Below the pieces are notes generated by a model. The model was not told the origin of the DNA. It did no database searches and was given only the letters and a program-made list of their open reading frames with translations. Source: a virus. Taken from it: DNA of 64,000 nt. Within the stretch, counting starts at the first letter, position 1, and every line of letters begins with the position of its first letter. The stretch spans positions 25,272-89,271 of the IMG/VR virus record IMGVR_UViG_3300042888_001972. One strand, written 5' to 3'. Below are positions 6,305 through 59,213 of this stretch, in pieces. Both the position numbers and the translations under genes were made by a program.

Positions 6305-8056
6305 ATGGATGTAAGTCTCGAGTCAAAAGCATTGTCCCTATTGGAAACCTATGAAGGTGGTAATAACTACCTGATTGAGTTAAAACGAAAGTCTCAATTA
6401 AATAGAAAATTTTATCCCACAAGGAGTCAATCAGAATACATTATTAACAATCATGATAAACAACCCAAAGTCGCTAAGAAATGGGTTATTCTTGATGCCT
6501 ACTTTGCACAAAAACTTGCAGATGATAAACTATACACCGAAATACCACAAAAAGTTTGGGTAGAAAAACTATTATCTGATAAAGAAAAGGCATTTCATAT
6601 TTGGGGTAAAGTATTCGAAAACGAGGAATTATATCACTTTTGGTTACCTAAAGCCGCCATCATTAAAGATAATACCGTTAAGGATGTTGTTATTGATTAT
6701 TCAAAATATTCTAATCGTCCCCCTCTTGAACACCAAAAAGAAGCTATCCAAAAATTAGTTGAGAATAAAAAGTTTATCCTTGCCGATGATATGGGTCTTG
6801 GTAAAACCACTTCAACGATTATTGCCGCATTAGAGACCGGAGCAAAGAAAATTTTAATTATTTGTCCGGCGACTCTTAAAATTAACTGGAAACGAGAGAT
6901 TGAAAATTATTCTGACCGACCAATTTTTATTTCAGAAGGAAAACAATTTAGTACAGAAGATGACTTTGTTATTGTCAACTACGACATTATAAAGAATTTT
7001 CACGACCCAAAAAAGAAAGACGATTCTCTCATTTTAATGTCAAAATTTGATTTGATTATTATTGATGAAGCACATTATATTAAAAACGCTCAAGCTCAAC
7101 GAACAAAACTTATCAACGATATAACCAAGAGTGTTGATAGATTATGGTTGTTAACCGGTACACCGATGACTTCCCGTCCAATAGATTATTTTAACTTACT
7201 TAGTTTAATTGATTCACCTGTTGCCAAGAATTGGATGGCGTATGTTATTCGTTATTGTGCCGGTTTTCAATTTAAAGTTGGTCCAAGAAAAATTTGGAAT
7301 GTCCAAGGAGCATCAAACCTTGAAGAATTACGAGATAGAACAGTTGGTCTAACATTAAGAAGATTAAAAGAGAATGTTTTAGATTTACCTGATAAAATTA
7401 TTACACCTGTTTATTTGAGATTAAAATCAAAAATGTATGAGGAAGTAATGGGTGATTATTATAATTGGTATGAAAAAAACCCTGAAGAATCAAAATCACT
7501 AACAGTACAATTCACCAAACTAACTAAAATTAGACAAATTATTGCAGATGAGAAAATTTCTCAAACAATTGAAATTGCTGAAAATATTATTGAACAAGAT
7601 AAAAAAGTAATCATCTTTTGTAATTTTACCGATTCATTAAATAAAATTACTGAACACTTTGGAAAGGCATCGGTTAAACTTGATGGGTCAATGTCCAAAG
7701 TTGAGAGACAGTTTAGTGTTGACCAATTTCAAGAGAATGATAAAATAAAAGTATTTGTTGGGAATATTAAAGCAGCCGGTGTCGGAATTACTTTAACTTC
7801 CGCAGAGGCAGTAATCTTTAATGACTTATCATTCTTACCATCTGACCACGCACAAGCAGAAGACCGAGCATATAGATATGGTCAAAAAAATAATGTATTA
7901 GTTTATTACCCAATTTTTGAAAATACAATCGAGGGAATCATTTACGATATACTCCACAATAAGAAACAAGTTATTGCAACCGTTATGGGTGATAATCAAA
8001 ATACTGCCGACGCAGCTCAAGAAATTTTAAAGAGAATTAATGAAATGCGTCGTTAA
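6305..8056 (+). CDS. SNF2-family DNA helicase/translocase
   Basis: 583 residues with all the SF2/SNF2 motifs: Walker A with DDMGLGKT at about 161-168, motif Ia PATLKINW at about 188, motif II DEAH at about 254-257, motif III LLTGTPMTSRP at about 282, and a C-terminal half ending in GVGITLTSAEAVIFND and AEDRAYRYGQ (motifs V and VI). The 140-residue N-terminal part has no clear domain. Small SNF2 proteins of this SMARCAL1-like type remodel forked DNA or strip bound proteins; in a T4-like phage the role may parallel UvsW in recombination and replication restart. The gene begins 55 bp from the divergent gp14-like gene. Family is certain, exact role is not. Confidence 0.9.
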   Translation: MDVSLESKALSLLETYEGGNNYLIELKRKSQLNRKFYPTRSQSEYIINNHDKQPKVAKKWVILDAYFAQKLADDKLYTEIPQKVWVEKLLSDKEKAFHIWGKVFENEELYHFWLPKAAIIKDNTVKDVVIDYSKYSNRPPLEHQKEAIQKLVENKKFILADDMGLGKTTSTIIAALETGAKKILIICPATLKINWKREIENYSDRPIFISEGKQFSTEDDFVIVNYDIIKNFHDPKKKDDSLILMSKFDLIIIDEAHYIKNAQAQRTKLINDITKSVDRLWLLTGTPMTSRPIDYFNLLSLIDSPVAKNWMAYVIRYCAGFQFKVGPRKIWNVQGASNLEELRDRTVGLTLRRLKENVLDLPDKIITPVYLRLKSKMYEEVMGDYYNWYEKNPEESKSLTVQFTKLTKIRQIIADEKISQTIEIAENIIEQDKKVIIFCNFTDSLNKITEHFGKASVKLDGSMSKVERQFSVDQFQENDKIKVFVGNIKAAGVGITLTSAEAVIFNDLSFLPSDHAQAEDRAYRYGQKNNVLVYYPIFENTIEGIIYDILHNKKQVIATVMGDNQNTADAAQEILKRINEMRR

Positions 8057-8069
8057 AACAATTTTTGAT

Positions 8070-8077
8070 TATTTATA
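8070..8077 (+). promoter_or_regulatory. TATTTATA box upstream of superoxide dismutase fusion gene
   Basis: TATTTATA lies 21 nt before the ATG at 8099 in a 42-bp gap after the helicase gene. It matches the boxes at the virion genes. Confidence 0.4.
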
Positions 8078-8098: not shown

Positions 8099-9631
8099 AT
8101 GAAAAAAATAGAACAAAAAATTCAACAGTTAGAAACAACAATCCTTGAAAGTCACGTACTTAAGGAAAAAAATCTGTTGATTACAGAAATGAAGAAAATA
8201 GGAATTGAAAAATTACCTTACTCTTATTCAGCCTTGAAACAATTCATCGACCCCGAAACGATGGAATTTCACTACAACAAACATTATAAGGGATACGTGG
8301 ATAAATTAAATGATGCTCTCTCAAAGAAAAAATACGGGGATTTAGAATTAGAACAAATCATAAAAACAATTAGTCGATTTGATAAAACAATTCGTAATAA
8401 TGCCGGTGGGGCTTTTAACCACGCATTATTTTGGAATATGTTGTCACCAACACCCACAAAACTTAAAGGAGAACTTTTAAATAAAATTACCAAACAATAT
8501 GGTAGTTTTCCTAACTTTAAAAAAGAATTTGAAAAAATTGCAAAAGAACGATTTGGTTCGGGTTGGGTATGGTTAGTTTTAACATCAAGAAATACTTTAA
8601 AAATTATGTCTACTCCAAATCAAGATAATCCACTAATGAATGTTATCGAAGGTGGTGGATTCCCGTTGTTAGGATTAGATTTATGGGAACACGCTTACTA
8701 TCTAAAGTATAGGAATAAAAGAGATGAGTACATCTCAAACTTTTGGAAAGTTGTAAATTGGGATTTTGTTTCTAAATTATATGAAATGAAAACTGAAACA
8801 AAACTTTTAGAGTCCACAAAAATAAAACTAATATTGAGTGAGGGTAAATCAGAAATGTGTTCATCAGATGAAAACGAATTTTATAGAAAGTTATTTAACA
8901 CTAACGAAGATGTTAAATGGATTTACATGAAAGGTATCGATAAAATCATGAGAGAAGTTTTTTCTGAGAATTATGTTGAAAATCCTCCTAATAACCAAAT
9001 GTCAGGTGTTTATGATTTAGAAGGAACAGGGAGGTCAATAATTAATAAATTAAATACAAATTATACAACATTCTGTATTTTATTAAATGATTTAAATCAA
9101 GTTATTAATAAATTAACAAAAAACGCACCAATTAATTTTAAAAATAAAAACACAGAAGAACAAAAGAAAGAAGCTTTAAGATTTATTTCCGCAATTAACC
9201 ATTATAAATTTAAAATATTTAATCGAGAGAGTTCAACATTTCAAAACTTGTTAAAGGTCTTAATTGAAAAAGATGCCGCGGGTTCAAAACGTGAAGAAAT
9301 AACAGCTTCAATATTGAGAAGATATTTTGGTAAAGGAGTTAAAGTTGAAATTGTCGGTGAACTTGGAAGTAAAAAAGACGCGATTAGTGGAATTGATTTA
9401 GAAATAACCAAAGATGGTGTGACCAAAACCGCTCAAGTTAAACCCTTCCGAGAGAAAAAAATGACAGATGATGGTATTTTACTCGAAGGGACTGCAAGTG
9501 TAAAGATTTATAAAACCGATTTAATGGTTTTTCAAAAAGGGAAAAATGTTTTAGTTTTTGATAAAAAACCAATAATAGTTAATGGTAATTTCCTTTTTCC
9601 ATTGGACTCATTATTATATGATATACAATAA
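8099..9631 (+). CDS. Mn-type superoxide dismutase fused to a PD-(D/E)XK-like nuclease domain
   Basis: 510 residues. Residues about 35-228 are a complete Fe/Mn superoxide dismutase. The metal ligands are H58 (in METMEFHY context), H108 (FNHALFW), D194 and H198 (DLWEHAYY). The second-sphere Tyr is at 66 (GYV), and GSGW is present. Glycine at 104 and the NQDNPL motif with Q175 are the Mn-type signature. A linker (TKLLESTKIKLILSEG, about 234-249) resembles the terminal targeting peptides in this genome. The C-terminal domain has helix E399-E400, then SGIDLEI with D433 and QVK with K448, a PD-(D/E)XK-like arrangement with Gln in place of the acidic residue. The enzyme would convert superoxide to peroxide; the fused domain may cut DNA. 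The TATTTATA box upstream suggests late expression and perhaps packaging. The dismutase call is firm, the nuclease call moderate. Confidence 0.87.
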   Translation: MKKIEQKIQQLETTILESHVLKEKNLLITEMKKIGIEKLPYSYSALKQFIDPETMEFHYNKHYKGYVDKLNDALSKKKYGDLELEQIIKTISRFDKTIRNNAGGAFNHALFWNMLSPTPTKLKGELLNKITKQYGSFPNFKKEFEKIAKERFGSGWVWLVLTSRNTLKIMSTPNQDNPLMNVIEGGGFPLLGLDLWEHAYYLKYRNKRDEYISNFWKVVNWDFVSKLYEMKTETKLLESTKIKLILSEGKSEMCSSDENEFYRKLFNTNEDVKWIYMKGIDKIMREVFSENYVENPPNNQMSGVYDLEGTGRSIINKLNTNYTTFCILLNDLNQVINKLTKNAPINFKNKNTEEQKKEALRFISAINHYKFKIFNRESSTFQNLLKVLIEKDAAGSKREEITASILRRYFGKGVKVEIVGELGSKKDAISGIDLEITKDGVTKTAQVKPFREKKMTDDGILLEGTASVKIYKTDLMVFQKGKNVLVFDKKPIIVNGNFLFPLDSLLYDIQ

Positions 9632-9643
9632 CGTTTAACAATA

Positions 9644-9651
9644 TATTTATA
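9644..9651 (+). promoter_or_regulatory. TATTTATA box 3 nt upstream of gp13-like gene
   Basis: TATTTATA is followed by GTT and the ATG at 9655. The same box with the same GTT spacer precedes the minus-strand gene at 15383. Confidence 0.5.
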
Positions 9652-9654
9652 GTT

Positions 9655-10782
9655 ATGGCAGTTATACCGGAACCAGAAAGAAGTAAAATTTATACAAGAG
9701 TCAAACATCAATTAGGTGCTCCACTTAGAAGTGTTGAACTTGAAGATGAAATGATGGACTCATTAATGGAATTATCTATTGGAGACTACGAAGAATACGT
9801 TCTTCAGTGGTTAATAGATAGTCAATGGGTTAATTTAGTTAACCTAAACATGAATGAGAAATCAGTTGCAAAAGCATTGATTACTCGAACAATGGATTTT
9901 GAACAACAATTTAGTTATTCATATTCAAAAATTGTAGGTCTTCAAACAGAAGGTCCATGGGTTTTGAAGAAAGATTATTTTATCTTAAGTGCAAATACTC
10001 AAACATACGAAATCCCTGCAGGTCGTGAGGTTAATGAATTATTATGGTTTAGTGATAGACCATGGAATGCATTTGGATTAGGTGCCACTGCCGGTGGATT
10101 TGGTGCTGGTATAGGTCTTGGAGCTAATGAGGCGGGATTCGCACAAATGGGAAATCAAGGTTCTTACTTTATGATGTCAGGTTTTGATTATCTTGTGAGA
10201 ATGCAAGAGGCAAATGTCTTGAGTAGAATTTTAGGAGGTTCACTTACCTATAGAATTACCGGATTACCTGATGGTAAGAAAAATATTCATTTATACAATA
10301 CACCGGGAGGAAGATTTAATTGGAATAATATTAACGGTTATGTGGGTAAAGCGGTGTGGTATTGGTATTATGATGTATCACCTGATAATAGAGCGGATTG
10401 TTTAAAAAATAATCCCGATGTAATTAAATTACCTTCGGATGTTCCAATGGATAATTTATCTTGGGAAGATTTAAACATACCAGGTCAACAATGGGTTAGA
10501 AGATGGTTTACCGCGTATTGTAAAGAAACGTTAGCAAGAGTTAGAGGAAAATATAGTGGTAATCTTAAAACACCTGATAGTGAATTAACTATGGACTATA
10601 CATCCTTATTAACTGAATCAAAAGATGAAAAAACTAAATTAATTGAAGAATTAACAGGTGCTGAAGGATGGTTAACAAGATTAAGACCAGAAAAAGTGAT
10701 GGAACGAGAGGCATTAATTGCGGAAAACTTAAACAAACAAATGAAATTTAGAGCAATGCCTCGACAAATATACGTAATATAA
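9655..10782 (+). CDS. Neck protein gp13-like (head completion)
   Basis: 375 residues. The N-terminus (VKHQLGAPLRSVEL, then a helix ending GDYEEYV) matches the conserved start of T4 gp13 (RRLGAP..VELT..., Y.EYH). The middle has a glycine-rich loop (about 140-165) and the end has WVRRWFTAYCKETLARVRGKYS, the counterpart of the gp13 helix that follows NRWVKDYATALAKE. gp13 closes the portal and joins head and tail. The C-terminus is longer than in T4, with a charged helix. A host-independent TATTTATA box lies 3 nt from the start codon. The next gene begins 1 nt after the stop. Confidence 0.85.
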   Translation: MAVIPEPERSKIYTRVKHQLGAPLRSVELEDEMMDSLMELSIGDYEEYVLQWLIDSQWVNLVNLNMNEKSVAKALITRTMDFEQQFSYSYSKIVGLQTEGPWVLKKDYFILSANTQTYEIPAGREVNELLWFSDRPWNAFGLGATAGGFGAGIGLGANEAGFAQMGNQGSYFMMSGFDYLVRMQEANVLSRILGGSLTYRITGLPDGKKNIHLYNTPGGRFNWNNINGYVGKAVWYWYYDVSPDNRADCLKNNPDVIKLPSDVPMDNLSWEDLNIPGQQWVRRWFTAYCKETLARVRGKYSGNLKTPDSELTMDYTSLLTESKDEKTKLIEELTGAEGWLTRLRPEKVMEREALIAENLNKQMKFRAMPRQIYVI

Positions 10783-35092: not shown

Positions 35093-36304
35093 ATGTCAAA
35101 AATAAAAGTATTAGTCGTACCATCCGACAGAAGCGGAGTTGGTAAATTTAGGTCAGTCGACCCTCACATTTTCTTACAAAATCTTTATGGTGATGATTTT
35201 CATATTGATATCATCTATGACCCGTCCTATGACGATATGAATTTTTGGAAACAATACCAAATTGTTAGTTTCCATAGAAGTATCGGTCCTGATTTTGAAA
35301 AATCTCACGAATTAATCCAAAAATTAAATACTATGGGTATCATAACTGTTTGTGATATCGATGACTATTGGATGCCCGGTAAAGAACATCCTATTCATGA
35401 CATTATTATTTTTAATAAAATAAACGAAAAAATAGTAGCAAATCTTAAGGTTGCGAAATATGTTACTACAACAACCACACTATTTGCAGATGAAATTAGA
35501 AAATACAATAAAAATGTTTTTGTATTACCAAACGCGATAAATCCTAACGAACCTCAATTCAAAGAACCAACATTAGAATCTGATAGATTAAGATTCGGAT
35601 GGTTAGGTGGTTCATCTCACTTACACGACATTCAAATATTAAACGAAGGGTTTAATAAATTAACAAAATACCAAGATAAAGTACAATATGTTCTTTGTGG
35701 TTTTGACACTAGAGGTACGGTAACTGAAATCAATTCACAAACCGGAGAACACGTAAAACGAAATATTAAACCTGACGAAACTGTTTGGGCTCAATATGAA
35801 AAAATCTTCACACAAGATTATAAAATAGTTTCAGACGATTATAAAAAACATTTACTATTATACAATCAAGATATATTCCCTAATGAGATGACAGAATCTT
35901 ACTTAAGAGTTTGGACAAAACCAGTTACATCTTACGCAAAGAATTATTCAAAATTTGATGTATCTTTGGCACCAATTAAAAACCATATGTTTAATAGAAT
36001 GAAATCGCAATTAAAAGTAATTGAGGCGGGATTCTATAAAAAAGCGTTAATTGCCTCTAATGTAGGTCCTTATAGTTTAGATTTAAAACATTGTTTAAAA
36101 AATGGAGAATTAGTTGACGGAAATGCGTTATTAGTTGATGAGGTTAGAAATCATTCTGATTGGGCAAAATACATGGAAAAATTAATTAAGAACCCTAATA
36201 TGGCAAAAGATATGGGGGAAAGATTGTATGAGACAGTTAAAGACAAATACGATTTAAATATCGTAACAAAAGACAGAGCAGAATTTTATAAATCAATACT
36301 ATGA
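35093..36304 (+). CDS. GT-B glycosyltransferase (group 1-like)
   Basis: 403 residues. N-terminal Rossmann half: KVLVVPSDRSGVGKFRSVDPH (glycine loop with acceptor site), VSFHRSIGPDF, VCDIDDYWMPG and VTTTTTLFADEI. C-terminal half: VLPNAINPNEPQF, RFGWLGGSSHLHD, VQYVLCGFD, and FDVSLAPIKNHMFNRMKSQLKVIEAGFYKKALIASNVGP, the pattern of E-x-x-A-x-x-x-P nucleotide-sugar sites. It heads the large operon and starts right after an inverted repeat. Its stop overlaps the next start (ATGA). Donor is unknown. Confidence 0.85.
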   Translation: MSKIKVLVVPSDRSGVGKFRSVDPHIFLQNLYGDDFHIDIIYDPSYDDMNFWKQYQIVSFHRSIGPDFEKSHELIQKLNTMGIITVCDIDDYWMPGKEHPIHDIIIFNKINEKIVANLKVAKYVTTTTTLFADEIRKYNKNVFVLPNAINPNEPQFKEPTLESDRLRFGWLGGSSHLHDIQILNEGFNKLTKYQDKVQYVLCGFDTRGTVTEINSQTGEHVKRNIKPDETVWAQYEKIFTQDYKIVSDDYKKHLLLYNQDIFPNEMTESYLRVWTKPVTSYAKNYSKFDVSLAPIKNHMFNRMKSQLKVIEAGFYKKALIASNVGPYSLDLKHCLKNGELVDGNALLVDEVRNHSDWAKYMEKLIKNPNMAKDMGERLYETVKDKYDLNIVTKDRAEFYKSIL

Positions 36305-37002
36305 TAAACATACCATTAAACAAGATTTTATTTTTAGACATTGAAACTGTTGGTATTGAACCAACATGGGAATCATTGTGTTTAAATAGACCGGAACTTT
36401 CATTTCAATTTGAAAAATATTTTGATTGGTTCCAAAAAAGATTTCCGGAAGATGCGGATGAGGGTCCGGGTAAAATGTTTGTAAACAGAGCGGCATTAGT
36501 TCCTGAATTTTTACGAATTGCATGTGTTAGTGTTGCGTTTGTGGCACCTGATGGTACTACAAAAATGGAATCATATAGTAATGTGGACGAAAAAGAACTA
36601 TTAAAAGATGTTCAGAAAATGCTTCATCGTACCGGTGAATTAGGATTCTTTCTATGTGGTCATAATGTTAAAGGGTTTGATATTCCCGTTCTTGCAAAAA
36701 GAATGATTATGAATGGATTATTACCTCCAAAAATATTACCAGGTCATGACACTAAACCTTGGGAGATTAAAGCTCTTGATACCAAAGAAGTTTGGCAATA
36801 TGGTGGTTATGGGTCAATTGCATCATTAGAATTGATGTGTGTTTGTTTAGGAGTTGAATCTTCAAAAAATATGGAAGTAACAGGAAACAAAGTTCACGAA
36901 GCTTTTTGGGATAAAAAAGACATTAAAGGAATTGTTGAGTATTGTGAAAAAGATGTTGAAGTGTTGATAGAAGTAATTAAAAAATTAAAAGAATTAGTAT
37001 AA
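36301..37002 (+). CDS. DnaQ-like 3'-5' exonuclease (PolB-exo2-like)
   Basis: 233 residues. Exo I ILFLDIETVG (Asp and Glu metal ligands at about 13 and 15), Exo II GHNVKGFDIPVLAKR and Exo III YCEKDVEVLIEVI (Asp). These are the DEDD exonuclease motifs, in the arrangement of the predicted 3'-5' exonuclease family related to DNA polymerase B (PF10108 type). It likely trims single-stranded DNA or RNA in repair. It overlaps both neighbours by 1-4 nt, so it is part of the glycosylation operon by co-transcription only. All catalytic residues are present. Confidence 0.85.
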   Translation: MINIPLNKILFLDIETVGIEPTWESLCLNRPELSFQFEKYFDWFQKRFPEDADEGPGKMFVNRAALVPEFLRIACVSVAFVAPDGTTKMESYSNVDEKELLKDVQKMLHRTGELGFFLCGHNVKGFDIPVLAKRMIMNGLLPPKILPGHDTKPWEIKALDTKEVWQYGGYGSIASLELMCVCLGVESSKNMEVTGNKVHEAFWDKKDIKGIVEYCEKDVEVLIEVIKKLKELV

Positions 37003-37625
37003 TGCAAAATTTAGATGGATTAGGGTTTGACCCCGAAATGATGGCAAGTTTTCAAAAACAATTAGAAGACCTTCAAGAAGAAGCCGATGTTGAAATTGAT
37101 GATGAATACCAAAAAGAATTAGAAAAATTAATTGGTATGACTTATGAAGAAATGAATGAGGATATGATGTTAGCCCTAAAAAGTAAAACACTTAAAGTGG
37201 AATTACTTAATGATGAAATATCATTCCCGGAATACGCCTACCCAAGTGATTCAGGATTTGATTTATTCTCAACAGAAGAAATAATATTACAACCATTTGG
37301 TAGAGCACTTGTGCCAACTGGTATTAAATTGTCAATACCTGAAGAATTTGAAATTCAAGTTAGACCTAAAAGTGGTTTGGCAATCAATCAAGGGTTAACC
37401 GTATTAAACACGCCAGGAACTGTGGATTCAGGATATAATGGTGAAATTAAAGTAATTATTTTTAACACAAATAACATATCGGTATTAATTCCTAAAGGAA
37501 CTAAAATTGCTCAAGCGGTTTTATGTCCAGTAGTTAATGGAAAATTTGTTAACTTAATTCAAGTTAATAATATTACTGATGGTGATAGAGGAGATAACGG
37601 ATTTGGTAGTACAGGATTGATATAA
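37002..37625 (+). CDS. dut: dUTPase (dUTP diphosphatase) with acidic N-terminal extension
   Basis: Five trimeric dUTPase motifs are in order: SDSGFDL (about 82), RPKSGLA (about 121), NTPGTVDSGYNGEI (about 136), KGTKIAQAV (about 163) and RGDNGFGSTG near the C-terminus. It cleaves dUTP to dUMP and keeps uracil out of phage DNA. The usual subunit is about 140-150 residues; here there are some 60 extra N-terminal residues (MQNLDGLGFDPEMMASFQKQ and a further acidic helix), perhaps for partner binding. The end overlaps no other gene; the next starts 1 nt later. Confidence 0.93.
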   Translation: MQNLDGLGFDPEMMASFQKQLEDLQEEADVEIDDEYQKELEKLIGMTYEEMNEDMMLALKSKTLKVELLNDEISFPEYAYPSDSGFDLFSTEEIILQPFGRALVPTGIKLSIPEEFEIQVRPKSGLAINQGLTVLNTPGTVDSGYNGEIKVIIFNTNNISVLIPKGTKIAQAVLCPVVNGKFVNLIQVNNITDGDRGDNGFGSTGLI

Positions 37626-37626
37626 T

Positions 37627-39252
37627 ATGATAACAGTAGGATATTCGACAAGGACTCACAACCCAGAGTTCATTGAGTACTTGAAAAAAAGTTCAGGTTT
37701 CAAAAAAATTGAGGTTATTGAAAAAATAAATAATGGAGAAAAATCTCTGTCCGAGGTTTACAACGAAATACTATCCGAGTCAAAAACGGATATTGTTGTT
37801 TTATGTCATGACGACATTTATTTTGATACTAATGCTTGGTATGCCAAATTAATTAAACATTTTGAAAAATCTGATTTCGGTATCATTGGAATGGCCGGGA
37901 CTACTGATATGCCTGAAAGTGGTATGTGGTGGGAAAACAGAAAAAAAATGGTGGGTATTGTTAACCACGAACATGAAGGAAAAAAATGGGAATCAAAATA
38001 CTCAGATAGTCTTGGTAATGATATTCTTGAAACTATAATTGTGGATGGACTTTTTATGGCAATCAATAAAAAAAGAATTAAGAAAAACTTTAATGAAGAC
38101 TTTAAAGGGTTTCACTTCTATGATATACCATTTTGTTTTGATAACTATTTGGAAGGTGTTAAAGTAGGTGTTATAACAAACATCAGAATAACTCACAAAT
38201 CTATTGGTCAAACTAATGAACAATGGGAAGAAAATAAAAAATTATTTGCAGAAAAGTATAAATCAAACTTGCCGGTAAAATTACCATATAATGAAAAAAG
38301 AAAACTAAAAGTATTATTATCTTGCTTATTCTTTAAAACATTTACTGGTTCAGAGCTTTATGTTTATGAATTAGCTAAAAATTTAATAAAACAAAATTGT
38401 GATGTAACCGTAATGTCCCAAATTGGAGGTCTGTTAACGGACATGGCAAAAAAACAAGGTATTAAATGTGTTTCTTTTGAAGACGCTCCCGGGTTTAAAA
38501 TGGGTGACGGAAAATGGGGGCATAATACAGATAAAGGGTTTCAACCATCTCAACCAAATGTAATGTACCGAGTGTCAGAAGTTAATTTTGATTTAATCCA
38601 TATGCAACATAAACCTGTTGCAGAAAGAATGATTCAATTTTATCCTGAAATTGATAAAATTTATTCAATCCATTCAGAAGTGATTCAATTGGAAAACCCA
38701 ATCGAACATGAATCAATTAAAAAATACATCGCAATTAGACCTGAAATTAAAGATTATCTAATTGATTTTTTCCAAATACCTGATGAAAATATTGAAGTTA
38801 TTTATAACCCAATTGATAATGAAAAATTTAAACCAAACCCAATTAAAGAAGAAAATAGTGTTCTTTTTGTTGGAACAATTGATTATCTAAGAAAAGAAAC
38901 CATCATAGATTTAATGGAACGAACTAAGGAAGAGGGTAAAGAATTATGGTTAGTTGGTGAAGATAAAGGAAATTATTTACAACAAGTGTTGTTTGAACCT
39001 CATGTAAAACATTTTCCGCCAACATGGAATGTAGAATCATTTATTTCCAAATGTTCTGAAACGGCAGGTATTCAATTAGGAAGAACAACTATTGAAGGTT
39101 GGTTATGTGGAAAGCCAGGATGGATTTATAAAGTTGATTCATCGGGGTTTATTTTAGATAAAACAAAATTTGAGGTCCCAATGGATTTAGAAAAATATTA
39201 TTCCTCAAATGTTGCAAAACAAATAAAAGAAGAATATATTAAAATATTATAA
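37627..39252 (+). CDS. Two-domain glycosyltransferase (GT-A-like plus GT-B)
   Basis: 541 residues. The first 220 are GT2-like: ITVGYSTRTHNPEFIEYL, KTDIVVLCHDDIYFDTNAW (DD motif) and FHFYDIPFCFDNYLEG. The second part, from about 225, is a GT-B enzyme: KVLLSCLFFKTFTGSELYVY, IYSIHSEVIQLE, VIYNPIDNEKF, VLFVGTIDYLRKET and RTTIEGWLCGKP. The C-terminal E-G-W-L-C-G-K-P is the usual donor-site motif. The two domains may add two sugars in sequence. One of three fused glycosyltransferases in the window. Confidence 0.8.
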   Translation: MITVGYSTRTHNPEFIEYLKKSSGFKKIEVIEKINNGEKSLSEVYNEILSESKTDIVVLCHDDIYFDTNAWYAKLIKHFEKSDFGIIGMAGTTDMPESGMWWENRKKMVGIVNHEHEGKKWESKYSDSLGNDILETIIVDGLFMAINKKRIKKNFNEDFKGFHFYDIPFCFDNYLEGVKVGVITNIRITHKSIGQTNEQWEENKKLFAEKYKSNLPVKLPYNEKRKLKVLLSCLFFKTFTGSELYVYELAKNLIKQNCDVTVMSQIGGLLTDMAKKQGIKCVSFEDAPGFKMGDGKWGHNTDKGFQPSQPNVMYRVSEVNFDLIHMQHKPVAERMIQFYPEIDKIYSIHSEVIQLENPIEHESIKKYIAIRPEIKDYLIDFFQIPDENIEVIYNPIDNEKFKPNPIKEENSVLFVGTIDYLRKETIIDLMERTKEEGKELWLVGEDKGNYLQQVLFEPHVKHFPPTWNVESFISKCSETAGIQLGRTTIEGWLCGKPGWIYKVDSSGFILDKTKFEVPMDLEKYYSSNVAKQIKEEYIKIL

Positions 39253-39272
39253 AATAAAGATTGATATTATTA

Positions 39273-39938
39273 ATGAAATTATTAATTAAATTCCCAACAA
39301 GAAATCGTAAGAATAAATTTTTTACAGTATTAAAACAATATCAAAGATTATGTGAAGATATTGAGAACACATTTTTTCTAATAACTTTAGATAATAATGA
39401 TGATGAAATGAATTCACCTGAGGTCGCAGATATTTTTAGTACATTCAAGAATATAAAATATGTTTATGGAAATAGTATTTCTAAAATTCATGCGGTAAAT
39501 AGAGACATTGAAACTGTAGATGAATGGGACATCGTATTATTGGCTTCTGATGATATGACCCCAAAAGTTAAAGGATATGATAATATTATTCGTAATAAAA
39601 TGAAAGAACATTATCCCGACACTGATGGTGTTTTATGGTTTAATGATGGTCACCAAGGAAACAATCTAAACACTCTATGTATTTTAGGTAAAAAATACTA
39701 CGAAAGATTTAATTATATTTACCACCCTGAATACAAATCAGTTTGGTCAGATAATGAGTTTATGTTAGTTGGTAATCTTTTACAAAAACAAACTTATTTT
39801 GATGAAGTTATAATTGAACATGAACATCCTGATTGGGGGTATGGTAAACGAGATAATATTCATCAAGTAAATTTATTAAATGAAAGTCATGATAGAAACT
39901 TATTTATGAGTAGAAAACAAAATAACTTTTATCTATGA
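39273..39938 (+). CDS. GT-A-like glycosyltransferase (221 aa)
   Basis: A TTG opens the ORF at 39261, but the ATG at 39273 (MKLLIKFPTRNRKNKFF) is preferred. It has the KFPTRNR start, FLITLDNNDDEMN and DEWDIVLLASDDMTPK (acidic DD motif) of small GT-A-like enzymes related to GT2. A C-terminal ILGKKYYERFNYIYHPEYKSVWSDNEFM segment with the WSDNEF acid motif completes the site. It ends 4 nt into the next gene. Specificity is unknown. Confidence 0.7.
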   Translation: MKLLIKFPTRNRKNKFFTVLKQYQRLCEDIENTFFLITLDNNDDEMNSPEVADIFSTFKNIKYVYGNSISKIHAVNRDIETVDEWDIVLLASDDMTPKVKGYDNIIRNKMKEHYPDTDGVLWFNDGHQGNNLNTLCILGKKYYERFNYIYHPEYKSVWSDNEFMLVGNLLQKQTYFDEVIIEHEHPDWGYGKRDNIHQVNLLNESHDRNLFMSRKQNNFYL

Positions 39939-40591
39939 AAAAAATAATTAGTTTTTCTCTTTGGGGTGATAACCCTAAGTATACAATAGGTGCAATAAGA
40001 AATGCGGAATTAACACCAATTATTTATCCCGGATGGATTTCAAGATTTTATTGTGGTGAGTCCGTACCAACCGATATTATTAAAACATTAATTTCTTTAC
40101 CAAACACTGAAGTTGTTATGATGGATGTTGACGGAGATTGGACTGGTATGTTTTGGAGATTTTATGCTTGTGAAGACTCAGACATAATGTTGTCAAGAGA
40201 TACTGATAGTCGATTATCCAATAGAGAAAAATTAGCAGTAGATGAATGGTTAGAATCAGATAAAGACTTTCACATTATGAGAGACCATCCTTATCATAAT
40301 ACAGAAATTTTAGGTGGTATGTGGGGAGTAAGAAATGGTTTATTAAAAAACATGAAACAATTAATTAATGATTATACCAAGGGTGATTTTTGGCAAGTTG
40401 ACCAAAATTTTTTAAGAGAAAAAATATACCCATTAGTTGTTAATAATAGTTTTACACATGATACTTATTTGAATTATAATACCAATTCAAAACAATTCCC
40501 ATCTAAAAGCATAAACAAAGAATTTGTCGGTGACGTTTTTGACGAAAATGAAAATAGACACCCGGAATATTATAAATTTATTAAAGAATGA
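39935..40591 (+). CDS. Glycosyltransferase-like protein, paralogue of 17939-18577
   Basis: 218 residues, MKKIISFSLWGDNPKYTIG start identical in its first nine residues to the copy in the minus-strand cluster. The DIMLSRDTDSRLSNREK strand holds the DxD motif; RDHPYHNTEILGGMWG and QVDQNFLREKIYP follow. Middle identity to the other copy is high, with the C-terminus different. The pair shows that glycosyltransferase genes have been duplicated between the two clusters. Its stop overlaps the next start. Confidence 0.65.
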   Translation: MKKIISFSLWGDNPKYTIGAIRNAELTPIIYPGWISRFYCGESVPTDIIKTLISLPNTEVVMMDVDGDWTGMFWRFYACEDSDIMLSRDTDSRLSNREKLAVDEWLESDKDFHIMRDHPYHNTEILGGMWGVRNGLLKNMKQLINDYTKGDFWQVDQNFLREKIYPLVVNNSFTHDTYLNYNTNSKQFPSKSINKEFVGDVFDENENRHPEYYKFIKE

Positions 40592-41313
40592 AAATAGATT
40601 ACGTTATTGTATCGTCAAATAATAATCCATATTATTTGGATTTTTGGCCAATAATTTCCAAAGTATGGAAAGAAAAATTTAACATAACTCCCGTATTGGG
40701 ATTAATTAGTGACGAAGATTCAGGATTTGAAGAATCTGAATATGGATTAGTTAAAAAATTTAAATCAATTGATGGTATTGATACCGGTCTACAATCTCAA
40801 ATTGTTAGACTATTCATACCAAAAGAGTTAAACGGATATTGTTTAATTAGCGATATAGATATTATACCTCTTTCAGTTAATTATTTTGAAAATTGTGCTA
40901 GTCATCTAACTGAAACTAATATTGTTGTATATTCATCTGACCACCCTGAATGTTTAAGAAATAATGAGTATCCTATGTGTTATGTTTCGGCGCATAGTGA
41001 ATCTTTTAAAAATATTTTTAATTTGGATATTGATTGGGTATCATTTGTTAATTTAATGAAATCACGAAATCAAGGATGGGCAACTGACCAAAAATATTTA
41101 TTTGAAAAAATAAATGACTTTAAAAAAAATACAAATGATGTTATTTTGTTAGATAGAGGATGGTCCGGAATGGCTAACAAAAGAATTGATAGAGCGGCTT
41201 GGAGTTACGACCCAATTAAAGTTTCAGAGGGGTATTACATTGATTCTCATTCTTTAAGACCTTATAGTGAATATTCAGAAGAAATAAATAAATTAATAAA
41301 TTATATGAATTAA
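40588..41313 (+). CDS. GT-A glycosyltransferase-like protein (241 aa)
   Basis: It starts MKIDYVIVSSNNNPYYLDF and has GYCLISDIDIIPLSVNYF, a DxD-bearing strand, then IVVYSSDHPECLRNNEYPMCYVSAHSESFK, a GWATDQKYLFEKI helix and a final YDPIKVSEGYYIDSHSLRPYSE. The DID motif and GWATDQ segment are typical of GT-A enzymes with a metal-bound nucleotide-sugar. It starts 4 nt before the end of the previous gene. Family level only. Confidence 0.65.
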   Translation: MKIDYVIVSSNNNPYYLDFWPIISKVWKEKFNITPVLGLISDEDSGFEESEYGLVKKFKSIDGIDTGLQSQIVRLFIPKELNGYCLISDIDIIPLSVNYFENCASHLTETNIVVYSSDHPECLRNNEYPMCYVSAHSESFKNIFNLDIDWVSFVNLMKSRNQGWATDQKYLFEKINDFKKNTNDVILLDRGWSGMANKRIDRAAWSYDPIKVSEGYYIDSHSLRPYSEYSEEINKLINYMN

Positions 41314-41949
41314 ATGAAAGATTATTACGATACCATTGTTGGAAAAACAACAATTTCACCTAAAACAATTTTAGAAATTGGGTCAAGAGACGGTAATGAC
41401 GCAGATGAATTAATGAAATATTTTCAATTAAATAATGAAGATGTGTGGGTAGTGGAACCTAACCCGAATCAAATTAAAGTTATTGAAGATTCTCACCCTA
41501 ATTTTAATTTAATACCAAACGCGATTTTTAGTGAAGAAACTGAACATGATTTTTATCAAGTTATTGGAAACGACCCTAATGATGTGGGTACTAGTTCATT
41601 AATTAATCGTAATGATGATTGGTATAAATCAAAAACAAATATAATAAAAGTAAAAACAATAACCGGTAAACAGTTGTTAGATAAAATAAACCGAGAAGTT
41701 GATATTTGTAAAGTTGATGTTGAAGGATTAACAATTGAAGTTTTAAGTAGTTTTTTAGAATTTATCACTAAAATTAAATCTTTCCATTTAGAATGCGAAC
41801 ATCGTGAAGTTTGGAAAAATCAAAAATTATATGATGATGTTGCCAAATTCTTAATCGATAAAAATTATACTCAAGTTTATTTTCAGTATTGTTCCGGAGG
41901 CACTTTACAGTCTGATAGTATATGGGTTTTAAATGATTATTTAAAATAA
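41314..41949 (+). CDS. FkbM-family methyltransferase
   Basis: 211 residues. SAM site: TILEIGSRDGNDADELM, VWVVEPNPNQIKVIED (acidic end of strand 2) and LIPNAIFSEE. The later DICKVDVEGLTIEVLSSF strand and SFHLECEHREVW are the FkbM marks (K-x-D-x-E-G). FkbM enzymes methylate sugar hydroxyls or other O-positions, often in glycan loci. It is in an all-glycan operon, so it probably caps or edits a glycan. The start immediately follows the previous stop. Confidence 0.85.
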   Translation: MKDYYDTIVGKTTISPKTILEIGSRDGNDADELMKYFQLNNEDVWVVEPNPNQIKVIEDSHPNFNLIPNAIFSEETEHDFYQVIGNDPNDVGTSSLINRNDDWYKSKTNIIKVKTITGKQLLDKINREVDICKVDVEGLTIEVLSSFLEFITKIKSFHLECEHREVWKNQKLYDDVAKFLIDKNYTQVYFQYCSGGTLQSDSIWVLNDYLK

Positions 41950-41956
41950 AAAAAAA

Positions 41957-42637
41957 ATGAAGATATTAGTATTAATAATGTCTCATGAAACAACTGATAG
42001 TAATTTTGTTAATTATAAGAGAGTATGGGATGAACAAATTTCAAAATTAGATACTTCAAGATTTAATATAGAATTTAAATTTTTATATTCTAATAATGAA
42101 ATATCTGAAGAATACTTAATTCAGGGTAATAATTTGATTACTCGATGTTATGAAAATTATTGGTTCTCTTTAATTTTAAAAGTTATGAGTGGGTTTGATT
42201 ATTTCATTAAAAATGATTTTGACTTAGTTTTTAAAACCAATCTTTCAACTATTATTAATTTTGAAAAATTTTACGAATACTGTGAACAAATTCCTGAAAC
42301 AAGGGAATTTGTTTATGATGGAGTTGTCGGTAATTATCAAGGATATTTGTTTTGTTCCGGAGCCGGAATGTTATTAAACAAAAAATCTGTTAATCTAGTA
42401 TTAAACAGTAAAGAACATTTAAATGAATCATGGACCGATGATATTTTTATTGGTTTTATATTAAATGACTTAAATAATATACGTCCATGTCCATTATTGA
42501 CAAGGTTTGATATTGATAAAGATAATACAACGGTTAATGAAGAAATGGTTAAATCTCATTCACATACCAGAATAAAAATCAGGTCAGGAAATCAAGATGA
42601 GTTATACACCAACATGGTTTATAACATTCTTAAATAA
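41957..42637 (+). CDS. Glycosyltransferase, galactosyltransferase-like (226 aa)
   Basis: MKILVLIMSHETTDSNFVNY is followed by FDYFIKNDFDLVFKTNLST (acidic D-x-x-x-K-T-N), a VGNYQGYLFCSGAGMLLNKKSV segment and an ESWTDDIFIGFILNDL segment. The order F-x-D-L-V-x-K, G-x-x-Y-x-x-G-x-G-x-x-L and E-x-x-x-DD-x-F-x-G is that of beta-1,3-galactosyltransferase-like (GT31) enzymes. Poly-A sequence before the ATG is typical of Bacteroidota-type starts. Specificity is a guess. Confidence 0.6.
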   Translation: MKILVLIMSHETTDSNFVNYKRVWDEQISKLDTSRFNIEFKFLYSNNEISEEYLIQGNNLITRCYENYWFSLILKVMSGFDYFIKNDFDLVFKTNLSTIINFEKFYEYCEQIPETREFVYDGVVGNYQGYLFCSGAGMLLNKKSVNLVLNSKEHLNESWTDDIFIGFILNDLNNIRPCPLLTRFDIDKDNTTVNEEMVKSHSHTRIKIRSGNQDELYTNMVYNILK

Positions 42638-42675
42638 AATAATTAAGTTAGTATAATTATAATATAAAAAAACAC

Positions 42676-43377
42676 ATGAAATTAGGATTATCAACAATGA
42701 CCAAAAATCAAGGGTCAAGATTAAAAGAATGGGTTACATATCATAATAATTTAGGTGTCGAAAAATTTATATTTTTTTTAGACAATTGTACCGATGATTC
42801 TCATCTAATATTGTCTGAAATTAAAAATATAGATATTGACATTTATTTAACTTCAGAAATTAAACCAAATCAAGTTGTTGATTCTTGGATTCTTCGTAGC
42901 CATAAAATGTATGATTTTACCTTAGAAAACTACTCTGATTTAGATTGGATTTGTTTTATTGAAGTTGATGAATTTATATACCCTCAAACAAATGTTGGAT
43001 TTAAACCATTTTTAGAATCGTTAGATAGTGAATGTTTGTATATTAATTCATGGGATTTTAAAGGAGGGTTTGACGAAAATCTTCCAATTATTGGTCAATC
43101 AAATTTAGTTTGGACCGATGAACAAAGATTTAATTCGGATTATAGATGGAGAGGAAAATCAATAATTAAACCAAAAAATTTTGTAAAGTGTATGGATGCT
43201 CATCATTTCATGAGAACTGACGGTAGAATTTCAGGAGAATTTAAAATTGAGCATGTTAATTTTTTACAGGTTAATTATGGTAAAGAAGTTACAATCGATG
43301 ACACACTATTCAAAATTTTTCATTTTAGAAATCACACTCCAAATAATATGACCAAATATAGAATAATAGAATACTAA
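42676..43377 (+). CDS. GT2/GT92-like glycosyltransferase (233 aa)
   Basis: The start KLGLSTMTKNQGSRLKEWVTYHN, then GVEKFIFFLDNCTDDS, and DWICFIEVDEFIYPQ (the EVDEF metal motif) match the glycosyltransferase family 2_4/92 (DUF23-type) pattern. A late CMDAHHFMRTDGR and HFRNHT segment also fits. It follows a 38-nt gap after the previous gene. Together with its neighbours it likely extends a glycan. Confidence 0.75.
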   Translation: MKLGLSTMTKNQGSRLKEWVTYHNNLGVEKFIFFLDNCTDDSHLILSEIKNIDIDIYLTSEIKPNQVVDSWILRSHKMYDFTLENYSDLDWICFIEVDEFIYPQTNVGFKPFLESLDSECLYINSWDFKGGFDENLPIIGQSNLVWTDEQRFNSDYRWRGKSIIKPKNFVKCMDAHHFMRTDGRISGEFKIEHVNFLQVNYGKEVTIDDTLFKIFHFRNHTPNNMTKYRIIEY

Positions 43378-43382
43378 AAATT

Positions 43383-44369
43383 ATGAATATAGCAATTATT
43401 GGAGGTGGATGGATTGGATGTCATTTAGCGGTCAAACTAAAAAATACACATAGTGTTACACTATACGAAAAAAATAAAAACTTATTTGAAGAAACTTCAT
43501 ATAATAATCAAAATAGATTACATATCGGATTTCACTATTCAAGGAATTCTAAAACAAGGAATTTATGTTTAAATACATTTAATAGATTTTTAGATGATTA
43601 TTCATTTCTAACTAAAGAGTTACCTAAAAATTTATATTGTATCCCTCAAAATGAATCAATAATTGATTATGGTACATTTAAAGAAATATTTAACAAATAC
43701 AACATTGAAGAGGTTTCTACCAATTTAAAAAACATTGAGGGTTGTGTTAACACAGATGAAAGATTTATTAATTTTAAACATGCCAATTCATTCTTTAATC
43801 AAGAATTAAAAGATTTGGTAATTAATGAAACTGTCGATAAATTAAAGTTAAAAAAACTTCAAACAGAATATGATTTAGTAATTAATTGTACTAATAATCA
43901 CATAAAAGACAAAAACCAATCCAATTCGTTTTATGAACCAACTATTACATTAATTTATGAAAAAATTAATGAAACATCATTTGATGCATTAACATTGGTC
44001 GATGGGAAATTATTTTCAATTTATCCATATCAAAATAATGAATATACTATTACAGATGTTGAACATACTCCAATTAAAAAATTTAAGTCAGTTAAAAAAT
44101 TAAATAAATTTATATCTGAGTTTAACACAGATATAATTAAAGAAAAACGGGATTTAATTGAATCTCGTATTAAAAAATACTATATTGATTTCACCAATGA
44201 TTTTAAATATAAATCTTATTTTTTATCAACAAAATCAAAAATAGAAAATTTATCTGATGATAGGTCTCCTATTATCAGTATTGATGGAAATTTAATTAAT
44301 TGTTTTACGGGTAAAATACAAGGAATTTATTTAATAGAGGATTACCTAAAAGAACAATATAATTTATGA
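43383..44369 (+). CDS. FAD-dependent oxidoreductase (DAO-like)
   Basis: 328 residues. NIAIIGGGWIGCHLAVKL at the start and the acidic VTLYEKN at the end of the second strand are an FAD dinucleotide-binding site of the D-amino-acid oxidase type. NQNRLHIGFHYSRNSKTRN and the late SIDGNLINCFTGKIQGIYLIEDYL (second FAD contact region) agree. In an operon of sugar genes it may oxidise a sugar or amino-sugar intermediate. Substrate is unknown. Start is 5 nt after the previous stop. Confidence 0.7.
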   Translation: MNIAIIGGGWIGCHLAVKLKNTHSVTLYEKNKNLFEETSYNNQNRLHIGFHYSRNSKTRNLCLNTFNRFLDDYSFLTKELPKNLYCIPQNESIIDYGTFKEIFNKYNIEEVSTNLKNIEGCVNTDERFINFKHANSFFNQELKDLVINETVDKLKLKKLQTEYDLVINCTNNHIKDKNQSNSFYEPTITLIYEKINETSFDALTLVDGKLFSIYPYQNNEYTITDVEHTPIKKFKSVKKLNKFISEFNTDIIKEKRDLIESRIKKYYIDFTNDFKYKSYFLSTKSKIENLSDDRSPIISIDGNLINCFTGKIQGIYLIEDYLKEQYNL

Positions 44370-45403
44370 CAAGAGAAGAATTAACACAATTATTTGACAC
44401 TTACCTTAAAAGAGATTTTAGTGATTACGAATGGAAGGTTCATAATCGAAAAGATTATGATTCATTTGAACACGAATTACGAAATTGTGAAGAATACCAT
44501 AACACATCAAAAATTGATGACAGATTTAAAATTGGAATATTACTCACCGGGCATATTAGAAATAATGATATTTTACAAGGTATTTTAAGAAAAATTAAAA
44601 AATTAGACTATGATGTATTCATTCATACATGGGACAATATCGGTAAAAAAAATAATGAGACTAATTTAAATGATGTTTTAGAGATGGATAAAGTAAATTT
44701 TGAAATATCTAAAATACCTAATGTTAAATCAGTTTTAATTGAAAATAATAAAAAAGTAATAAGTAAAATTAAAACAATTAATGGATATTTTAATTACTCG
44801 TCTCCTGAGGTTTTTATTAAGTCACAACTATATTCAATTAACCAATCATTTAAACTACTTGAGGAATACTCTGAAAAAACTAAAACTAAGTATGACATTA
44901 TTTTTAAATTTAGATTTGACACCAATATTGACACTTTTATATTAGATGATGATTTAATCAAAGATATTATTGAAAATAATATTATCTTTGTACCAAATGG
45001 AGATAATAATCATATTCATAGTGATTATGGTACTTCCTGTCATGCATGTGATACTATGTACTACAAATACGGATTAAAAAAAGTTCATATTTTTGCACAT
45101 ACAACAATTATTTGCGATTTGTTTGCATATGGTAGTTATAAATCAATGAAAGATTATTGTGACGTTTATAATCATTATGATAACATTAATAAATCATTTA
45201 TTGATGAGAATATGGAATCATTAAAAACTAATGGTGAAAATGTGGTATTTGAAAATGGTAATTATATGATGCAAGGTTATGAAGGACACATTGATTCTTG
45301 TTATTATTTTAATTGTTCATATCCTGAAAGAGTACTTCAAGTTCATTTAAAAAAATATATGTTGATTCAATCAAAAAAAGTAAAATTAAATTTAGTTCGA
45401 TGA
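44366..45403 (+). CDS. Glycosyltransferase-like protein with short N-terminal helical domain
   Basis: 345 residues. The first 45 residues (LTQLFDTYLKRDFSDYEWK...NCEEYHNT) resemble the small helical DUF4214-type module often attached to glycan enzymes. The main part starts KIGILLTGHIRNNDILQGIL with DVFIHTWDN, then a strand with YDIIFKFRFDTNID and a late ICDLFAYGSYKSMKDYCDVY. The H-T-W and R-x-D patterns resemble GT-A-like proteins of phage and polysaccharide loci. Family is not certain. Confidence 0.55.
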   Translation: MTREELTQLFDTYLKRDFSDYEWKVHNRKDYDSFEHELRNCEEYHNTSKIDDRFKIGILLTGHIRNNDILQGILRKIKKLDYDVFIHTWDNIGKKNNETNLNDVLEMDKVNFEISKIPNVKSVLIENNKKVISKIKTINGYFNYSSPEVFIKSQLYSINQSFKLLEEYSEKTKTKYDIIFKFRFDTNIDTFILDDDLIKDIIENNIIFVPNGDNNHIHSDYGTSCHACDTMYYKYGLKKVHIFAHTTIICDLFAYGSYKSMKDYCDVYNHYDNINKSFIDENMESLKTNGENVVFENGNYMMQGYEGHIDSCYYFNCSYPERVLQVHLKKYMLIQSKKVKLNLVR

Positions 45404-46167
45404 AAATTATTATAGGAAACACGGGATTAGTTGGGACAACACTATGCGAATCAATTAATTTTGATTTAAAATTTAATAGCACAAATTTACCAGATTTTCC
45501 AAACATTGTTGAGGATGGGTCTGAATTATATTTAACTTGTTTACCGGCAACAAAATGGATGGTAAATAAAAATGTGACAGGAGATTTTGAAAATTTAATA
45601 AACATTTTGAATGTTATCAAACAAAAAAAATATTCTAAAGTTATTTTAATATCAACAATTGATGTTTACAATAATTCTCCATTAAAATCAAATGAAAATA
45701 CATCCCCTTTAGTTCAAAATCTTAACTATGGGAATAATCGTTACTTATTTGAAGTTCTTATTAAAGAATACCTACAAACTGAAGAGTTAAAAATATTTCG
45801 ATTACCGGCTTTATTTAATCGACACATTAAAAAGAATATACTATTTGATTTAATTAACAACAATAATGTTGAATCGATTAATTCAAATTCATCTTTCCAA
45901 TGGTATAATTTAAATAACTTATCAAATGATATTATCAAATATTCAGAAAAATATCCAAACGAGACGGTGTTTAATTTATTTCCAGAACCTATCAATTCAT
46001 TAGAAATTATAAATCTATTCCCATCTCTATCTAATCAAGTTAATTTTTCGGAAAACAAAATCGTTTATGATTTTACTACAAAATTATCTAATAATGATTA
46101 TATTTCAACTAAAGAAGAAATATTAACAGAAATTAAAGAATTAATAAATGAACTTAGCATTAAGTAA
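45400..46167 (+). CDS. SDR-family sugar-nucleotide epimerase-like protein
   Basis: 255 residues. KIIIGNTGLVGTTLCESI is a short-chain dehydrogenase glycine motif (G-x-x-G-x-x-G). VILISTIDVYNNSPL and YGNNRYLFEVLIKEYL follow, where the usual Y-x-x-x-K is YGNNR, so Lys is replaced by Arg. EIFRLPALFNRH-like text and LDFTTKLSNNDYIST close the domain. It is shorter than most extended SDRs (about 310). It may be an epimerase, reductase or a non-catalytic variant. The last bases overlap the next start by 20 nt. Confidence 0.6.
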   Translation: MKIIIGNTGLVGTTLCESINFDLKFNSTNLPDFPNIVEDGSELYLTCLPATKWMVNKNVTGDFENLINILNVIKQKKYSKVILISTIDVYNNSPLKSNENTSPLVQNLNYGNNRYLFEVLIKEYLQTEELKIFRLPALFNRHIKKNILFDLINNNNVESINSNSSFQWYNLNNLSNDIIKYSEKYPNETVFNLFPEPINSLEIINLFPSLSNQVNFSENKIVYDFTTKLSNNDYISTKEEILTEIKELINELSIK

Positions 46168-46912: not shown

Positions 46913-46918
46913 AACAAT

Positions 46919-48797: not shown

Positions 48798-48799
48798 AA

Positions 48800-49540: not shown

Positions 49541-50136
49541 TGAGGATTGCAATAGAATTAAATGGGGTATTGAGAGACACTTTAAAAAAAATACAACAGG
49601 AATATGAAAAATGGTATTTAGAAAATCCATTCACTGACCCTGACGAAGAATTTGAATACCAAGTTATTTCAGAACTTAAAAGTTTAGATATAACAAACCA
49701 TTTAAAATTTAAAGATGAAGATGAATTGTATAATTTTCTATACAAAGAACATACTATGGAAATTTTTGGGCATGCAGGGTCTGTCGAAGTATCAAGTATG
49801 ATGGATTTTAATGAGTTTTATTTGGATGTTAGGGATAATCATGACATTTTAATTGTCTCGGATGAGATGGGTAAATCAAAACCAGCATCATTATTTTTTA
49901 TCTCAAAATTTGGGTGTTTGGTAGAAACAGTAAAATTTTACAGTGAAACCACAATAAATTCTATGTGGGATTCAATAGACGTTTTACTTACTGCAAATCC
50001 TAAACTATTATTAGAGCATCCTGAGAATAAAACGGTGATTAAATTCAACACCAATTACAACTCAGAAATTAACATCGAGCATTCAATATCAAGTATTAAA
50101 GAGCTCAAATCTAAAATATCAGAAATTTATGATTAA
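49540..50136 (+). CDS. HAD-like protein with substituted catalytic acids
   Basis: 198 residues. The start MRIAIELNGVLRDTLKKIQ is in the place of the D-x-D-G-x-L-R-D motif of HAD phosphatases, but here E6-x-N8 replaces the two aspartates. NHDILIVSDEMGKSKPASLFFISKFG has the later DE and K loop and SIDVLLTANPKLL a further site. The fold is likely HAD-like; the loss of the nucleophile suggests a binding or structural function, not a phosphatase. The start overlaps the PhoH stop by 1 nt. Confidence 0.6.
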   Translation: MRIAIELNGVLRDTLKKIQQEYEKWYLENPFTDPDEEFEYQVISELKSLDITNHLKFKDEDELYNFLYKEHTMEIFGHAGSVEVSSMMDFNEFYLDVRDNHDILIVSDEMGKSKPASLFFISKFGCLVETVKFYSETTINSMWDSIDVLLTANPKLLLEHPENKTVIKFNTNYNSEINIEHSISSIKELKSKISEIYD

Positions 50137-50407: not shown

Positions 50408-50410
50408 AAT

Positions 50411-51463: not shown

Positions 51464-51464
51464 T

Positions 51465-58751: not shown

Positions 58752-59213
58752 ATGACAAGAATAGTAAAATTAACAGAATCAGATTTAACAAGATTAGTTG
58801 AGAAAGTTCTCAAAGAACAAGAAGTAGCTGACTATATGTTCTTCAGTAATCTACAACAAATTAAAAGACAATGTGAAGTATTGTTAGAAATGGACCCTCA
58901 ACAAATTGATGAAATTATTAATGAAGGAGGACATGATTGGGCTGATGACCACGTAACTGAAGCTAAAAATAACATGGACCAAGTATTCGATTTTTTAATG
59001 AACGAAACTAAAAAAGAATACATTGATTACGAAGACATTACTGAAGGTAGAAAGAAAACCGGAACTAAATTATGTGCAAGAGGTATGGCATCCGCCAAAG
59101 CTAAATATGACGTGTACCCCTCAGCTTATGCGAATGGACATGCTATTCAAGTATGTAAAGGTAAAATAAAAGGACTTGATGGTAAAAAACATTGTTCAGG
59201 AGCATATTGTTAA
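58752..59213 (+). CDS. Cysteine-bearing small protein with targeting-type N-terminal peptide (153 aa)
   Basis: It begins MTRIVKLTESDLTRLVEKVL, the clearest form of the shared T-E-S-x-L-x-x-[IVL] amphipathic peptide. The middle is acidic and helical. The C-terminal 50 residues have a LCARGMASAKAKYDVYPSAY segment, VCKGKIKGLDG and a final CSGAYC, a motif repeated in many large-phage proteins. Function is unknown. It starts 1 nt after the 500-aa gene; a terminator follows. A packaged internal protein is plausible. Confidence 0.6.
   Translation: MTRIVKLTESDLTRLVEKVLKEQEVADYMFFSNLQQIKRQCEVLLEMDPQQIDEIINEGGHDWADDHVTEAKNNMDQVFDFLMNETKKEYIDYEDITEGRKKTGTKLCARGMASAKAKYDVYPSAYANGHAIQVCKGKIKGLDGKKHCSGAYC

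Follow-up and report, generated by a model that had tools for sequence, protein, structure and literature searches.

Architecture of the fusion gene

In a 64,000-nucleotide stretch of viral DNA (positions 25,272 to 89,271 of IMG/VR record IMGVR_UViG_3300042888_001972; hereafter the window), a single open reading frame (ORF) joins a superoxide dismutase (SOD) to a C-terminal half with a predicted PD-(D/E)XK nuclease fold. The linker between them carries tandem sites of the type cut by the prohead protease of phage T4. The parts of the gene are listed below, an arrow marking each candidate cleavage site.

8099..9631, plus strand: SOD–PD-(D/E)XK fusion, 510 amino acids (aa), with an ATG start and without an internal stop
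8099..8188, plus strand: N-terminal leader, aa 1-30, ending ITE30↓M, not found in ordinary SODs
8207..8785, plus strand: Mn-type superoxide dismutase domain, aa 37-229, assigned from Pfam, PDB relatives, ligands and tree
8786..8845, plus strand: linker, aa 230-249, with tandem sites LLE238↓S and LSE248↓G, from an alignment of 146 sequences
8843..9628, plus strand: C-terminal half, aa 249-510, a helical region plus a predicted PD-(D/E)XK core at about aa 379-487, from AlphaFold/Foldseek and invariant residues
9293-9295, 9395-9397, 9434-9436 and 9440-9442, plus strand: codons of the nuclease-core residues E399, D433, Q446 and K448, respectively

We scanned IMG/VR by sequence patterns, using as queries the fusion, its C-terminal half, two huge-phage homologues (which gave no match) and later a standalone homologue. 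Before the last was added, the scans had yielded 310 complete ORFs that include the C-terminal half, a number that is not a count of viruses because some loci overlap one and the same contig. All but three are full fusions of 508–525 aa, the exceptions being an ORF of 347 aa and two from huge phages (290 and 251 aa). The 310 ORFs comprise 145 distinct fusion sequences, so that the architecture sketched for this one protein in a preliminary description of the window recurs in other phages. The fusion is genuine and widespread in freshwater phages of a large T4-like family. Among close relatives the SOD half evolves more slowly (81–92% identity) than the C-terminal half (60–74%), and over all distinct fusions the C-terminal identity to the window protein drops as low as 35%. 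An internal start at Met230, which would give a separate C-terminal protein, is unsupported, since M230 is kept in just 131 of 146 sequences and synonymous variation there is not suppressed.

The superoxide dismutase half

Two Pfam domains are found above the cut-off in the N-terminal half, Sod_Fe_N at aa 37-116 (1e-22, 80.8 bits) and Sod_Fe_C at aa 123-226 (2e-40, 137.3 bits), and among solved structures Mn-SODs are the nearest relatives, with E-values of about 1e-58 (e.g., Deinococcus MnSOD 2cdy). The metal ligands H58, H108, D194 and H198 are invariant in the 146 aligned sequences, as are Y66, the Mn-type G103-G104, Q175 and G192, the last lying two residues before the Asp ligand. A C-terminal Gln together with a Gly two residues before the Asp ligand indicates a preference for Mn (PMC10172142). 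The four ligands and the Mn-type Gly/Gln signature recognized in the preliminary description are therefore fixed throughout the family. Residues 37-229 are an Fe/Mn SOD with Mn-type signatures, and the intact active site suggests dismutase activity.

Compared with SodFM1-type Fe/Mn SODs, the protein has the same four ligands, water-coordinating C-terminal Gln (Q175) and Gly two before the Asp, but differs in its 30-residue leader, its 280-residue C-terminal extension and Tyr63. In place of the SodFM1 motif HXXXHH it reads HYNKHY, the last His being Tyr63, which is invariant in a 43-sequence alignment. This is no bar to membership of the Fe/Mn SODs, because HXXXHH is a subfamily feature that is lost in SodFM4 too.

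In a tree of 121 sequences, the fusion SODs form one group (support 97/69), with a single origin in 98% of the bootstrap trees. The neighbours of this phage-only clade are SODs that come mainly from Bacteroidota (about 46–57% identity), and the host of the fusion phages is likely a member of the Bacteroidota. The jumbo-phage SODs of Vibrio phage 2.275.O and Pseudomonas phage Callisto are likewise Fe/Mn SODs encoded by phages; however, they are short (182–190 aa), stand alone without a nuclease half and fall far from the fusion clade.

The nuclease-like half

From about aa 230 onwards, no significant family was found in sequence searches of Pfam, PHROGs, PADLOC or the PDB; the matches obtained were weak and below threshold (DUF6602, MC4 and EcoO109I). 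When the full-length model was used for a fold search, the matches listed were to SODs only, and the C-terminal half was therefore modelled alone. Some parts of the SOD half are of low quality in the full-length model, which is immaterial because the identity of the SOD rests on sequence evidence.

The AlphaFold2 model of aa 249-510, built with 33 family sequences, has a pLDDT of 93.5 and a pTM of 0.84. Its top Foldseek matches in the PDB are the PD-(D/E)XK homing endonuclease I-Ssp6803I (probability 1.00, E 5e-3) and Hjc resolvases, followed more weakly by RecU. In the model, E399 lies within a long helix (379–413), and D433-x12-Q446-x-K448 runs along consecutive strands. E399, D427, G431, D433, Q446 and K448 are invariant in all 145 complete sequences; the D-x12-Q-x-K spacing is kept in 142 of the 144 pattern-fitting sequences, and the catalytic E, D and Q-x-K are retained in the standalone homologues of two huge phages. 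Thus, the model assigns aa ~379-487, with high confidence, the alpha-beta core of a PD-(D/E)XK nuclease fold, in line with the upstream Glu helix and D-x12-QxK motif read earlier from the letters of the window. The fold and these residues suggest that the C-terminal half cleaves DNA.

I-Ssp6803I, archaeal Hjc and RecU share with this half the predicted fold, the E in the first helix and the D-x12-Q-x-K on consecutive strands. The active site of I-Ssp6803I is of a Q-x-K variant. In contrast to them, the C-terminal half shows no significant sequence match, has an extra helical N-terminal region and is joined to a SOD. As no named Pfam or PDB family was matched by sequence, it probably represents a new family of the PD-(D/E)XK superfamily. 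The best match in a viral structure library is A0A6J5L953, a 501-aa protein of an uncultured Caudovirales phage (TM 0.91, 34% identity to the C-terminal half), followed by A0A8D9CCA0, a marine phage protein of 1113 aa. Judged from its C-terminal match and its annotation, A0A6J5L953 is apparently the same fusion, although it is annotated just as 'superoxide dismutase'. Bacterial homologues of the C-terminal half were found neither in 396 Bacteroidota genomes nor in a pattern scan of genome contigs.

Cleavage-type sites at the domain borders

The T4 prohead protease gp21 cuts after L/I-x-E, and the T4 internal proteins enter the head via short N-terminal peptides that gp21 removes (PMC9026906). 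Across the 146 fusion sequences, L/I/M-x-E followed by a small P1' residue is kept at only two positions of the whole protein, aa 236-239 (95%) and aa 246-249 (94%), both in the linker and ten residues apart. L/I/M-x-E also ends the leader (aa 28-30) in 100% of the sequences. Conservation of 97% or more is reached by seven glutamates, four of which have L, I or M two residues before: E30, E238, E248 and E197 of the SOD active site. Three of the seven, namely E30, E238 and E248, belong to L/I-x-E at domain borders. Cys254 (window 8858-8860), directly past the linker sites, is invariant in all 146 sequences.

The preliminary description had pointed to a peptide like a putative targeting signal between the two domains. 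This peptide, aa 230-250, resembles the N-terminal KLTES...VLKE peptide of another ORF of the window:

58752..59213, plus strand: ORF with a like N-terminal peptide (MTRIVKLTESDLTRLVEKVLKEQ)

Strict matches to the peptide number 6 in 263 proteins, two of them being in the fusion itself, against 0.96 in shuffled sequences. Many small proteins start with an [LI]TES-type peptide (window ORFs 4406, 4945, 5346 and 58752; ORFs 108576, 172677 and 122712 of a relative, G001). These N-termini may direct proteins to the head and contain a gp21 site of the form L/I-x-E↓S. The fusion resembles the T4 internal proteins (IPI-III, Alt) in its L/I-x-E sites followed by a small residue, in the gp21-type protease of its lineage and in its late-type motif, but differs in that its signal is internal, between two enzyme domains.

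Gene neighbourhood and a late-type motif

The fusion gene occupies a conserved slot, and both it and its downstream neighbour are preceded by the same motif:

6305..8056, plus strand: SNF2-type DNA helicase (phrog_62), upstream neighbour, syntenic in 141/141 loci
8070..8077, plus strand: TATTTATA, late-promoter-like motif, 29 nt before the start codon of the fusion
9644-9651, plus strand: TATTTATA of the downstream adaptor gene
9655..10782, plus strand: head-tail adaptor-like protein (phrog_211), downstream neighbour, syntenic in 143/143 loci

The T4 late promoter uses TATAAATA. Between 90 nt upstream of the ORF and 20 nt into it, TATTTATA is exact in 114 of 145 distinct relatives, and TATTTAT is present in 143 of 145. 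In G001 the motif stands before 29 of 186 ORFs, where 1.2 would be expected, and many of these 29 are virion genes. Over the whole window its count is not above chance (19 versus 16), the signal lying in its placement; plus-strand copies are found at 8070, 9644, 14218, 32094, 57227, 61864 and 63388. The reversed motif also exceeds expectation in G001 (8 versus 1.2), and part of the signal may reflect intergenic A+T richness. Standing shortly before many virion-type ORFs, TATTTATA looks like the late promoter of this phage group. N-terminal [LI]xE[SAG] sites number 20 in G001 against 10.1 expected, and its ORFs with the late-type motif carry such a site more often than the others (11/41 versus 9/105, p 0.006). 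This enrichment is supporting, not decisive. Elsewhere in the window (35093-52271), a long run of ORFs resembles glycosyltransferases and nucleotide-sugar enzymes, suggesting phage-made glycans.

Homologues among head genes and a three-domain version

A gp21-type protease (Peptidase_S77) is encoded in six large relatives. The major head protein of G001 is of the T4 type, and LINE↓ASS occurs in its N-terminal region. Two homologues outside the window bear on the role of the nuclease-like half:

locus L424, 10105-11061 (118104-119060 of the genome record G410): standalone PD-(D/E)XK-like protein, between the prohead protease and scaffold-like genes
locus L441, 2270-4918: three-domain SOD–nuclease–nuclease protein, 882 aa, in the slot that the fusion has elsewhere, between the helicase and adaptor genes

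The standalone protein (318 aa) is encoded, between gp21 and a scaffold-like gene named by position and acidic composition rather than by a profile match, in a 322-kb relative that also has the fusion. It aligns with the C-terminal half of the fusion over 198 columns (hhalign probability 96.6%, E 5e-10), and its N-terminus reads MKITISE↓GQYKILSE. It occurs in fourteen loci, several of which may be the same virus, and as far as the flanks reach all lie in the head cluster; the same cluster in G001 and G411 is without it.

In the three-domain protein, both nuclease-like domains have G-Q-D and Q-V-K. Its leader carries LLE↓M and its junctions LME↓S and then LTE↓S...LLE↓G, the second repeating the 10-residue spacing of the fusion linker. 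Domains parted by L-x-E sites are what a cut polyprotein predicts. The three-domain version is known from one contig only and so needs confirmation.

Proposed model and alternative explanations

We propose, with a probability of roughly 0.6, that the fusion is a late, head-targeted cargo polyprotein that is cut by the prohead protease into an Mn-SOD and a PD-(D/E)XK nuclease. Small proteins are injected by T4-like phages. A TATTTATA-type promoter would drive late transcription of the gene, alongside that of the virion genes. The protein would enter the prohead through the peptide aa 230-250, and perhaps also the N-terminal leader, acting like the T4 capsid-targeting sequences. Cleavage after E238 and E248, and perhaps E30, by a gp21-type protease would then yield free Mn-SOD and free nuclease, as the conserved consensus sites suggest. 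Both enzymes would stay in the head and leave it together with the DNA upon ejection. With their invariant active sites, the SOD would remove superoxide as infection begins, and host, competitor or structured DNA would be cut by the nuclease. Because the linker looks like a cleavage site, the two enzymes probably act apart. The injected protein imagined in the preliminary description is thereby backed circumstantially, by the late-type motif, the tandem consensus sites and the homologue in the head-gene cluster, while its single bifunctional enzyme gives way to separated halves. Held more tentatively, at slightly under even odds, is the wider arrangement in which several enzymes (SOD and one or two nucleases) are made in one chain, led into the prohead by internal signals, separated by the protease and co-delivered.

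Several points weigh against this proposal. L/I-x-E is a weak consensus, and N-terminal sites are just about twofold enriched in G001. The targeting peptides of T4 are N-terminal, whereas the candidate peptide of the fusion is internal (aa 230-250), that of the standalone homologue being N-terminal. No gp21 was found in the fragmentary 89-kb record to which the window belongs. The PDB fold match is at superfamily level (best E 5e-3, TM 0.2–0.5), and given these modest TM-scores it places the superfamily, not the family. Moreover, a nuclease packed beside phage DNA would need inhibition or specificity; it could spare the phage genome if the uncut chain held it inactive, if it acted on branched or foreign DNA alone, or if it had no metal in the head.

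An unlikely alternative, though the strongest of those considered, is that the protein is not packaged but works as a bifunctional enzyme in the infected cell, where an Hjc-like nuclease and the neighbouring helicase would handle branched DNA by branch migration and resolution; the SOD would protect nearby DNA or act as a dimer scaffold, with the linker an ordinary helical spacer. The constant SNF2-type neighbour fits this explanation, as do the Hjc and RecU resolvases among the nearest solved folds and the linker, which the full-length model renders as a helix prolonging the C-terminal helix of the SOD. A search of five large relatives, whose records are incomplete, found no RuvC, and endonuclease VII matches were all sub-threshold, the one inspected looking like an HNH protein; with such incomplete records, however, the absence of a resolvase says little. 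The late-type motif ahead of the gene argues against a non-packaged enzyme, as do the cleavage-consensus sites, kept in 94–95% and recurring between the domains of the three-domain version, and the standalone homologue, which lies among head genes, not recombination genes.

Still less probable is that the C-terminal half has no nuclease activity and serves the SOD, the functional cargo, as a module for binding DNA or docking in the head; the SOD would then protect the packaged genome from photochemical superoxide. Tethering and packaging would account for the conservation, and the slower change of the SOD half also agrees with this explanation. However, E399, D427, D433, Q446 and K448 are invariant (145/145) despite C-terminal identities down to 35%, and E, D and Q-x-K are kept in both nuclease domains of the three-domain protein and in the standalone homologues, which therefore points to catalysis; cleavage at the linker sites would, in addition, part the SOD from such a module. 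Finally, the merging of two adjacent genes by a sequencing or assembly error, a danger named in the preliminary description, has a negligible chance, being refuted by about 145 distinct sequences, drawn from many metagenomes, that share the join, the reading frame and the gene slot, and countered by A0A6J5L953 as an apparently independent deposit.

Implications

Phage SODs and T4 internal proteins are already known kinds; what is new, as far as we searched, is the joining of a SOD with a nuclease and with internal cleavage-type sites. In agreement with the preliminary description, which knew of no fusion of SOD with such a nuclease, the open-access literature searched holds no description of this combination. 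To our knowledge, neither an injected antioxidant enzyme nor a cargo made as a multi-enzyme chain for cutting in the head is known. If the proposed model is true, the fusion would be a concrete case of superoxide chemistry mattering at the first step of infection, and its C-terminal half a new nuclease family as virion cargo. It would also allow the head contents of a large group of uncultured lake phages to be predicted by a sequence rule, the presence of L/I-x-E peptides in late genes.
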